Source: Oscillospiraceae bacterium (GTDB taxonomy: Bacteria; Bacillota; Clostridia; Oscillospirales; Acutalibacteraceae). From it: a stretch of 32,162 nucleotides of DNA. The notes below the pieces were generated by a model. The model was not told the DNA's origin, searched no databases, and worked only from the letters and a program-made list of their open reading frames with translations. This document shows, piece by piece, positions 1-32,162 of this stretch (positions are counted from its first letter, which is position 1; every line of letters begins with the position of its first letter). The stretch covers positions 1-32,162 of the forward strand of contig SVOC01000021.1 in NCBI GenBank assembly GCA_015066625.1, in the 5' to 3' direction. Made by a program: the position numbers and the translations under genes.

Positions 1-128
1 CAAATTCTTATTTATCGCTCTAATCATACCACAGTAAAAAGAAAAATTCCACCGTGTTTTTTATTCCGTTCATATACAAAGGTACTGATTACTCTGCCCA
101 TATGGAAATAAACAGACCGCTTTTATTT

Positions 129-30021: not shown

Positions 30022-30918
30022 TTACATTTTTAAATTTGCGTTTATCAACGGAAAACACGCTGTAATTTTCAAGCCGTCTTTGCCGTTTTCGGCGGTAACG
30101 GTTGCGTGATGTTTTTCAAAAATCGCCTTTGAAATCGCAAGACCTATACCCGCACTTTCGGGTGCAGCATTATCCGCATGGTAAAAACGGTTGAACAAAA
30201 GCGGGAGTTGTTCTTTCGGCACTCCGCCGCCGTTATCTTCAATAACGAGCGTGACAGAGCCTTCGTTTTGTGAAACAGAAACAGTAATTCTGCCGTCAGT
30301 TCCGGTATGTTCACACGCATTTTTGATGATATTTCCGATTGCCTCAATCATCCATTCCTTATCAAAACGAAAAACTGCCTTGCCGCTTATAATGAATTCT
30401 TTTTCTGGGAACAACGGTTTGAAGTTTCCGATAATTTCACCAACGATTTCATCAAGACTTTGCTCGACAAATTTCATTTCGTATGCATCGCTTTTAATTT
30501 TCTCAAGCCTTAAAAGATTGAAAACAAGACTCTCCATTTTCGCAATCAGTTGAAGCTCTTTTTCTGTGTACGCGGTCGGTGTTGAACTCTGCTCCATTTC
30601 GCAGTAAAGGCGAAGTCCTGCAAGCGGAGTTTTGAGCTGATGCGAAATGTCTGCAACAAAATCTGCGTTGCTTTTTGCCTGCGATGCCGAGTTGCTTTTT
30701 TCAAGAAGCAACAGATTTTCAAGCTCAGCAACAGCATTCTGAAGGCGTGCGAAATTGCTGTCGGCTGTGCTGTATTCAGTCTTTTCTCCGCCTTCAATAA
30801 AGCTCTCGATATTTTCTTTGAGATTATTTATCTGTTTGTTTTTTCTTGCGTTCAATATGATAAAAATGGTTGTTGCTACAATTAAAACAGCGATTGCGCA
30901 AATCAAGAAAGGAATCAT
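30022..30918 (-). CDS. Sensor histidine kinase of the exporter module
   Basis: The start ATG 30918 overlaps the regulator stop (ATGA) and follows GGGAGGATT; the product is 298 aa. A single N-terminal membrane helix (about 3-23) leaves almost no extracellular part. A short linker and coiled coil (about 25-78) follow, then the H-box DISHQLKTPLAGL with His93. The ATPase part has the N-box NIIKNACEHT, G1 DNGGGVPKE and G2 AGIGLAISKAI. Lack of a sensing domain recalls intramembrane-sensing kinases (BceS type), which take their signal from a partner transporter. The FtsX-type permeases encoded next door would be the natural sensor; this is inference. Confidence 0.93.
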   Translation of the reverse strand: MIPFLICAIAVLIVATTIFIILNARKNKQINNLKENIESFIEGGEKTEYSTADSNFARLQNAVAELENLLLLEKSNSASQAKSNADFVADISHQLKTPLAGLRLYCEMEQSSTPTAYTEKELQLIAKMESLVFNLLRLEKIKSDAYEMKFVEQSLDEIVGEIIGNFKPLFPEKEFIISGKAVFRFDKEWMIEAIGNIIKNACEHTGTDGRITVSVSQNEGSVTLVIEDNGGGVPKEQLPLLFNRFYHADNAAPESAGIGLAISKAIFEKHHATVTAENGKDGLKITACFPLINANLKM

Positions 30919-31580
30919 TTTGAATCCTCCCATCTGTAACCGATACCTCTTACGGTAACAATGTGACCGCTTCCGATTTTATCACGCAGGCGGCTCATAT
31001 GAACAGAAAGAGTGTTGTCATCGATGTAGTTTCCGTCGCTGTCCCAGATGTTATGCAGAAGCTGTGAACGGGTAACGATAATTCCGCTGTTGCGGATAAG
31101 CACGGAAAGAATCTGAAATTCCGTGGGAGTCACAAAAATATTTTCTCCGTTTTTTCTGACAGACATATTGAGAGTGTCGATTGTTATATCATCACTGTTG
31201 TAAACCGTAACAGCCGATGTTCTGCGGAGTAATGCACGGATTCTTGAAAGAAGTTCACGAAGCTTGAACGGTTTTGTGACATAATCATCCGCGCCTGCAT
31301 CAAGTCCACGCACAATCTGAATTTCATCATCGCAGGCTGTAAGAAACAAAACAGGAACATTATTGCCCGCCGCACGAAGCTCGGTGCAAAGTTCAAGACC
31401 GTTGCCGTCAGGGAGCATAACATCAAACATAATTAAATTGAAAGAGAAAAACTTCATCAGCTCACGGGCTTTCATGCAGTTATCTGAACTGATAACCTCA
31501 TAACCTTCGCCCTGCAAAACCTCCGTCAATCCGTCACGCAGAAACGAATCATCCTCAACAAGCAAGATTCTCTGTTTCAT
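30915..31580 (-). CDS. OmpR-family response regulator of the exporter module
   Basis: The 221-aa protein begins at ATG 31580. The receiver has EDD at 9-11, phospho-acceptor Asp53 (MFDVMLPDGNG) and Lys103 (DDYVTKPFKL). The winged helix (about 130-221) has FVTPTEFQILSVLIRNSGIIVTRSQLL and NTLSVHMSRLRDKIG. It is overlapped by the kinase gene, so the pair is made in fixed ratio. A 16-bp palindrome stands 31 bp upstream of its own -10 and a near-identical one before the ABC operon. This makes it the likely activator of both, comparable to BceR-type regulators. Confidence 0.94.
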   Translation of the reverse strand: MKQRILLVEDDSFLRDGLTEVLQGEGYEVISSDNCMKARELMKFFSFNLIMFDVMLPDGNGLELCTELRAAGNNVPVLFLTACDDEIQIVRGLDAGADDYVTKPFKLRELLSRIRALLRRTSAVTVYNSDDITIDTLNMSVRKNGENIFVTPTEFQILSVLIRNSGIIVTRSQLLHNIWDSDGNYIDDNTLSVHMSRLRDKIGSGHIVTVRGIGYRWEDSK

Positions 31581-31678: not shown

Positions 31679-31791
31679 AAGTGGGTAATATCTATATCTT
31701 TCATAAATATTTGTGCATAGTTATACAGAAAAAAACAATAAATTTAATTGTAAACTTTCTGTTAACAATCAACTTGTGCCCAACACTATCC

Positions 31792-31820
31792 TTGACAAAA
31801 AAGTTGGTCAGAATTATAAT
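31792..31820 (+). promoter_or_regulatory. Consensus promoter before the structured RNA
   Basis: TTGACA (31792-31797), 17-nt spacer and TATAAT (31815-31820), both perfect. The start site is expected near 31827. No plus-strand protein frame with a ribosome site follows in the window. Confidence 0.85.
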
Positions 31821-31829
31821 TTTATCAGA

Positions 31830-31843
31830 CGAACAATTGTTCT
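31830..31843 (+). promoter_or_regulatory. LexA-type SOS box over the transcription start
   Basis: CGAACAATTGTTCT matches the Gram-positive LexA (DinR) consensus CGAAC-N4-GTTCG in 13 positions; the core GAACAATTGTTC is a perfect palindrome. Its position immediately after the -10 box is where LexA represses. It is the only such box I noticed in the window. Confidence 0.75.
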
Positions 31844-32006
31844 TTTGATAAAACAAAGATTTTAATTTTTTATAAAAACATAAGCTTCAGAGAAGCGCCG
31901 CTTGAAATATTTTTGCAAAAAATATTTCAATTCCGGGGATTGGGGTTATCCCCAACAAGCGGCAAAAAGAGTGGTGCAAAAATTTGATTTTTCAAATTTG
32001 GGTACC

Positions 32007-32123
32007 CACTTGCCCTGCTTGCAAAGTTAGTGAATGGTTGAAAACCCGAACGGTTTTGCAAGCAGAATTTGCAAGAGTGTACTTACACTTGCCCTGCTTG
32101 CAAAGTTAGTGAACGGTTGAAAA
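32007..32123 (+). repeat. Two tandem 38-nt repeats, period 79
   Basis: Bases 32007-32044 and 32086-32123 are identical except for one base (GTGAATGG versus GTGAACGG). Each copy is the 5' half of a stem-loop whose loop carries the shared GTTAGTGAAYGGTTGAAAA, so the repeat is a duplicated RNA module, not a CRISPR unit. Confidence 0.85.
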
Positions 32124-32162
32124 TCGGAACAACTCGCAAGCAAAATTCGGTAAGTTTGTGTC

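Follow-up and report, generated by a model that had tools for sequence, protein, structure and literature searches.

A putative LexA-controlled promoter and hairpin leader at a contig end of an Oscillospiraceae genome, probably part of a CcrB-like serine recombinase element

Genes and features at the end of the contig

The stretch of DNA analysed here (the window) is an entire contig of 32,162 nucleotides (C8) from the genome of an Oscillospiraceae bacterium comprising 2.37 Mb in 32 contigs. Toward its right end, minus-strand genes for a histidine kinase (positions 30022-30933, recognized by domain scan) and a response regulator (30915-31580) lie to the left of a block composed of a promoter, a palindromic box, a hairpin-rich leader and a 79-base direct repeat that occupies positions 32007-32162 (Table 1). 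The feature is cut by the contig end at position 32162. The stretch that forms the left edge common to the copies of this block is lacking from one of them (L035). We did not find an empty counterpart of the window's insertion site among relatives: its response-regulator side is present, and beyond approximately position 31679 the sequence is different in each relative read.

Table 1. Coordinates of features of the block in the window
Position	Strand	Feature	Basis
31731..31791	+	Left edge of block common to copies, TTTAATTGTAAAC..CCAACACTATCC	Similarity between differently placed copies begins approximately here
31792..31820	+	Sigma-70 promoter, TTGACA-17-TATAAT	12 of 12 consensus bases
31820..31853		34-bp palindrome centred on the box, two 20-base arms, 90% complementary	Sequence
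31830..31843		Probable LexA (SOS) box CGAACAATTGTTCT (short form GAACAATTGTTC)	recA and uvrB boxes in same position; invariant in eight copies
31884..31896	+	Small hairpin GCTTC-AGA-GAAGC, terminator-like on opposite strand	Fold, alignment
31897..31963	+	Three-way junction, closing arms GCCGCTTG (31897-31904) and CAAGCGGC (31956-31963)	Fold, alignment
31980..31999	+	Hairpin AAATTTGATTTTTCAAATTT	Fold, alignment
32000..32007		GGGTACCC, putative target site where right ends of DUF4368-recombinase elements abut in relatives	L011, L040, L041
32007..32085	+	79-nt hairpin repeat, unit 1	Direct repeat, alignment, fold
32086..32162	+	79-nt hairpin repeat, unit 2, cut by contig end	Direct repeat, alignment

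The block is multicopy. A second copy in the same genome, on contig C25, is 97% identical and likewise stops where its contig does; contigs C31 and C12 carry the repeat part. The presence of multiple copies would explain why C8 and C25 both break at the block. The preliminary description had overlooked this multiplicity, as well as the direct repeat and the truncation by the contig end. A search of 45 genomes of the genus returned matches at an E value of 0.001 or better in nine of them, and the promoter-leader block is present as eight copies in six. Two of these eight copies, both in the window's genome, end at contig ends, and the other six are uncut. In a search of 300 genomes from the family, few of them from the genus, a good match was obtained in the window's genome and weak ones in three others; on reading, two of these three had no further relation to the block, and the third holds a hairpin resembling the one that precedes the recombinase gene of relatives.

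The repeat pattern was recovered in 12 stretches from a collection of named genomes, all of which are in contigs among those examined here and derive from Clostridia bacterium MAGs of gut samples from deer, sheep or water buffalo. Phage and plasmid records contained nothing that matched the block, and the repeat pattern gave zero matches in IMG/VR. A 17-base leader pattern recovered five stretches from IMG/VR, but these were taken as chance matches because the best similarity to the leader covers 18-27 bases around the search word.

Promoter and box

The preliminary description of this locus named a perfect TTGACA-N17-TATAAT promoter with a LexA-like box at its predicted start, and both elements are present, the box CGAACAATTGTTCT lying at about +4 relative to a predicted transcription start near position 31827. 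Note that the promoter by itself is unremarkable because perfect promoters (TTGACA-16..18-TATAAT) are common in the window, with five in 32 kb versus 0.04 expected. The combination of a perfect promoter and GAAC-N4-GTTC within 20 bases occurs once in the window, whereas a one-strand scan of 40 Mb generated by a first-order Markov model gave none. In one relative (L035), the spacer and the -10 element are changed and the box is kept.

The box resembles those of the SOS genes of the same genome, where AGAACATTTGTTTG and AGAACATTTGTTCA stand directly after the -10 elements of recA and uvrB, respectively; lexA carries two related boxes, both of which fall outside the pattern GAACAWWTGTTY. In the genome (G000) this pattern has 10 occurrences, among them those at the promoters of recA, uvrB and the window's block; by our own reading, nine of the 10 fall in sequence that resembles a promoter and the remaining one within an ORF. 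As a control, the reversed pattern returned three forward and seven reverse rows versus eight and seven for the real one. Given this control, the count alone is no proof and it is the placement that is informative. In this respect the window's box is like those of the genome's SOS genes, being located at a promoter, and all 14 of its bases are invariant in the eight copies, whereas adjacent bases and the outer palindrome arms vary. Judged by this placement and conservation, the window's promoter is very probably under LexA (SOS) control, as had been suggested at the outset.

It is improbable that the box is instead the operator of some other repressor that recognizes a similar palindrome. Such an operator would account for a palindrome of 34 bp, which is longer than a LexA box, and for the central AATT, which is one base removed from the ATTT found at this place in recA and uvrB. 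However, the core falls within the genome's SOS pattern and is placed as at uvrB and recA, and the outer arms of the palindrome vary among copies. Moreover, a copy of the same promoter in another genome (L044, in G020) carries the recA-like box CGAACATTTGTTTG ahead of a DUF3847 gene. By eye, the L044 promoter region adjoins what looks like a relaxase gene. In the window's genome, another gene whose promoter has a LexA-type box encodes RepA_N and DUF6017 domains (L072, G000:C31:94136).

Hairpin leader and the genes that follow it in relatives

More than 300 bases after the promoter had been described as devoid of reading frames and rich in hairpins, and this holds. No ORF of at least 60 amino acids was found in positions 31792-32162, where the longest stop-free stretches are 67 codons on the plus strand and 51 on the minus strand. 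The predicted fold of positions 31827-32162 has a free energy of -105.5 kcal/mol versus a shuffle mean of -75.5 (z -6.1), and none of 100 shuffles was as good. The three-way junction with 8-bp closing arms that had been proposed exists, but its last three base pairs compete with a 13-bp hairpin (31902-31930), and the closing stem in the MFE structure is 6 bp. On the minus strand, positions 31884-31896 form a terminator-like site directed against the leader (GCTTCTCnGAAGC followed by a T-rich stretch) that is also present in all five of L031-L035.

These features, together with the retention of the hairpins among copies, are what would be expected if the block were a free-standing, SOS-induced structured non-coding RNA whose recombinase neighbourhood is incidental. 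We nevertheless consider the large-RNA interpretation offered by the preliminary description to be unlikely. Covariance-model searches gave no match to GOLLD, ROOL, OLE, raiA or any other Rfam family at gathering score with the window and four relatives, and permissive searches (E of 10 or less for the window's block and 5 or less for the full L032 block) returned only low-scoring, unrelated families. Covariation is nearly absent as well. In a leader alignment of seven of the eight copies (A2, in which L037 is omitted owing to its deletion, the window row is the longest and two rows begin inside the box), one of 45 pairs is doubly changed, in a single row, and the covariation term is unfavourable (+0.88).

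The repeats were aligned separately (A1), using 23 of 38 repeat-core matches; those omitted are mostly final units whose similarity is lost beyond the core. Their two-stem hairpin is paired in 95.5% of cells versus 26-44% when the pairing is slid, which favours a structured RNA; one of 500 shuffles reaches the pairing percentage and three of 500 the covariation score, although related rows can produce such values without structure. Only one of the 14 pairs is doubly changed, in three related rows, and 284 of 500 shuffles equal that. By hand count there are six wobble pairs on the transcribed strand versus four mirror A-C pairs, and with frequencies this similar nothing indicates that an RNA, as opposed to a palindrome in the DNA, is under selection; the covariation is too sparse to tell these two apart.

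An argument against a free-standing RNA also comes from what lies downstream. A large serine recombinase (LSR) gene follows the block in five of five intact, uncut relatives, so that the alternative of a protein gene with a long leader is realized there. The LSR gene is the first gene in L032, L034 and L035, about 400, 440 and 510 bases past the box, respectively; in L031 and L033 a K+ channel gene comes first and the LSR gene is about 1.2 kb away. Over the five copies, some 400 to 530 bases separate the box from the first gene, and in a sixth (L037) a deletion joins the leader to the 3' part of an LSR gene. In the five intact copies, neither a leader-strand terminator-like site between the block and the first gene nor another leader-strand promoter scoring above 9/12 before that gene was found. 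L031 and L033 carry a 9/12 promoter with an extended -10 element before the channel gene, so that expression of the LSR gene there may be independent of the SOS promoter. The channel genes, which appear to be cargo, occupy 6136-6864 in L031 and 6254-6982 in L033 (reverse-complement coordinates), and the L033 protein has an Ion_trans domain.

We scanned the recombinases of L034 and L035 (P0001 and P0002), and each comprises Resolvase, Recombinase and Zn_ribbon_recom domains; in the window, the contig ends before any LSR gene. The best NCBIfam match of both proteins is CcrB, at 168.5 and 125.4 bits versus a cut-off of 900. The window's genome contains a single LSR of this type at an E value of 1e-30 (on C31), located behind a repeat array that is preceded by another recombinase gene and not by the window's promoter. 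The LSRs of the genus are not generally under SOS control, as the box GAACAATTGTTC is within 1100 bases upstream at two of 20 readable loci (L098, equal to L034, and L117, equal to L032). This survey covered 30 of 68 listed matches, and at 10 of these 30 loci no N-terminus was found in the stretch read; L035 is outside the 30, and at L099 (equal to L031) the box is present further upstream than 1100 bases. The LSR 3' ends of L031, L032, L035, L037 and L041 run into differing DNA, whereas L011 and L034 stay similar to each other past the stop codon, and therefore the right end is not uniform and the limits of the element are putative.

Two further observations concern the LSR genes. By eye, all three copies of one LSR type (L032 near 2197, L035 near 9198 and L041 near 3815) have an apparent ATA start that fits the ribosome-binding site, with an in-frame stop two codons before it and no ATG, GTG or TTG at that place. 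In addition, the hairpin TGTGGnAATGTGGGAAA..TTTTCCATnATTTCCAC that precedes the LSR gene is also located before another gene in a different genus of the family (L095).

Because an LSR gene follows the leader in relatives, we interpret the feature in the window as probably belonging to a small CcrB-like LSR mobile element, of which it would comprise the left end, the SOS promoter and the 5' leader; the LSR gene would lie past the contig end. LexA bound just past the start site would hold the promoter off, and DNA damage would free it. Transcription would then traverse the leader hairpins and the 79-base repeats to reach the recombinase gene, whose product could move the element. The hairpins most likely damp readthrough or translation and so keep recombinase levels low, which is the least certain step in this scheme. 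A specific attenuation-like terminator formed by the last repeat and the next segment (GCCTTG..CAAGGC and a T-run, or GCCCTG/CAGGGC in L033) was considered and rejected: its outer stem forms in one of four isolated folds and the terminator scan does not call it. The preliminary description was half right: LexA control of the promoter is very probable, and the 'large RNA' is most likely the leader and repeat array of a serine recombinase mobile element. Highly structured DNA that lacks genes and adjoins an SOS box where a contig breaks off does not have to represent a new RNA class.

Repeat array, module exchange and relation to known systems

Leader and recombinase do not diverge in step. Among the five readable copies, leader DNA is 83-90% identical and LSR protein 42-99% identical. 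L032 and L035 have LSRs that are 99% identical and leaders that are 86% identical, whereas L031 and L032 share 89% of the leader and 42% of the LSR. Between L032 and L035, identity is lower and uneven across leader and repeats; starting at the hairpin that follows the final repeat and continuing almost to the LSR end, it amounts to 37-40 of 40 bases in each 40-base block. The interval between array and LSR gene also varies, containing nothing, the K+ channel gene or, in L011, a small ORF. Leaders that are alike while their LSRs diverge mark the block as an exchangeable module, and the control unit of promoter, LexA box and hairpin leader appears to move between recombinases in ruminant-gut Clostridia.

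The repeats also have an existence of their own. At five loci (L012, L036, L038, L039 and L042, termed type B) they lie between host genes without promoter or LSR; L038 and L039 have the same neighbours on both sides in two species, and L036 and L042 share the right-hand neighbour. Uncut copies hold two or three repeats, and L042 holds a chimera of the two repeat types. At L011, L040 and L041, a few tens of bases separate the end of a DUF4368-type recombinase gene from the array that follows, the joint lying at GGTA/CCCAC, and by eye another element is joined at a later repeat in L043. From these junctions we read the DUF4368-recombinase elements as having inserted into the array.

It is conceivable, though we hold it only tentatively, that the hairpin repeats act as DNA, namely as binding or target sites of a recombinase that is driven by the adjoining SOS promoter. 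The solitary arrays, the single motif at which the DUF4368-element right ends meet the array, the varying repeat number and the chimera all favour such a role. However, no pair of empty and filled sites was found to show that the LSR element itself crosses over within the array, and homologous recombination explains changes in copy number and chimeras equally well. A role as DNA sites is compatible with the preferred reading of the feature as the leader and left end of an LSR element.

A second type of LexA promoter, unrelated in sequence, precedes what by eye are three tandem hairpin repeats at two further loci of the window's genome (L063 and L064, at G000:C3:44263 and C7:5613), and 12 of the 45 genus genomes match it at an E value of 0.001 or better. 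Among 18 loci of this second type that were read, 12 lead to one gene, another is truncated at that point, and at L128 a recombinase remnant follows. The gene has weak similarity to sigma factors (TIGR02937, E 0.001, below the cut-off) and, by eye, seemingly only an ATT or ATA start. A much bolder proposal, which we regard as a long shot, is that a genus-wide, exchangeable module of SOS promoter and tandem hairpins, with divergent LSRs, a twin at the sigma-like gene and landing sites, constitutes an integron-like serine recombinase platform tied to DNA damage.

An SOS-controlled recombinase would link DNA movement to damage, and the repeats seem to double as sites where other elements sit. The block therefore lends itself to testing how mobile elements connect to the damage response of their host.

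GOLLD and ROOL are tied to mobile DNA, and the block is long and hairpin-rich like these and similar ornate RNAs, OLE included. Unlike them, it has no covariance-model match and little covariation, and in relatives it leads into a recombinase gene. Another parallel is provided by the ccr genes (CcrA, CcrB and CcrC) of SCC/SCCmec, as the LSRs of the type found here are likewise mobile-element LSRs and have CcrB as their best NCBIfam match. PMC9728531 credits Liu et al. 2017 with a report that ccr genes are SOS-induced via LexA; under the conditions used in PMC9728531 itself, no significant ccr induction was seen. The LSRs described here differ from those of SCC in scoring far below the CcrB equivalog cut-off, in being present as one per block and in following a long leader with 79-nt repeats. 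In literature on serine recombinases or integrases and LexA, we found no exchangeable hairpin leader of this kind, although this coverage was limited and proves little.

Integrons combine a LexA-controlled intI with an attC array. The recombinases of the block are serine and not tyrosine enzymes, and only serine recombinases were seen after it; its repeats are adjacent, with no gene in each, and no attC core motif was seen in them by eye. Nevertheless, the block resembles integrons in joining a recombinase under probable SOS control to an array of imperfect hairpin repeats, and in the differing content between array and recombinase (the K+ channel gene, the small ORF or none).
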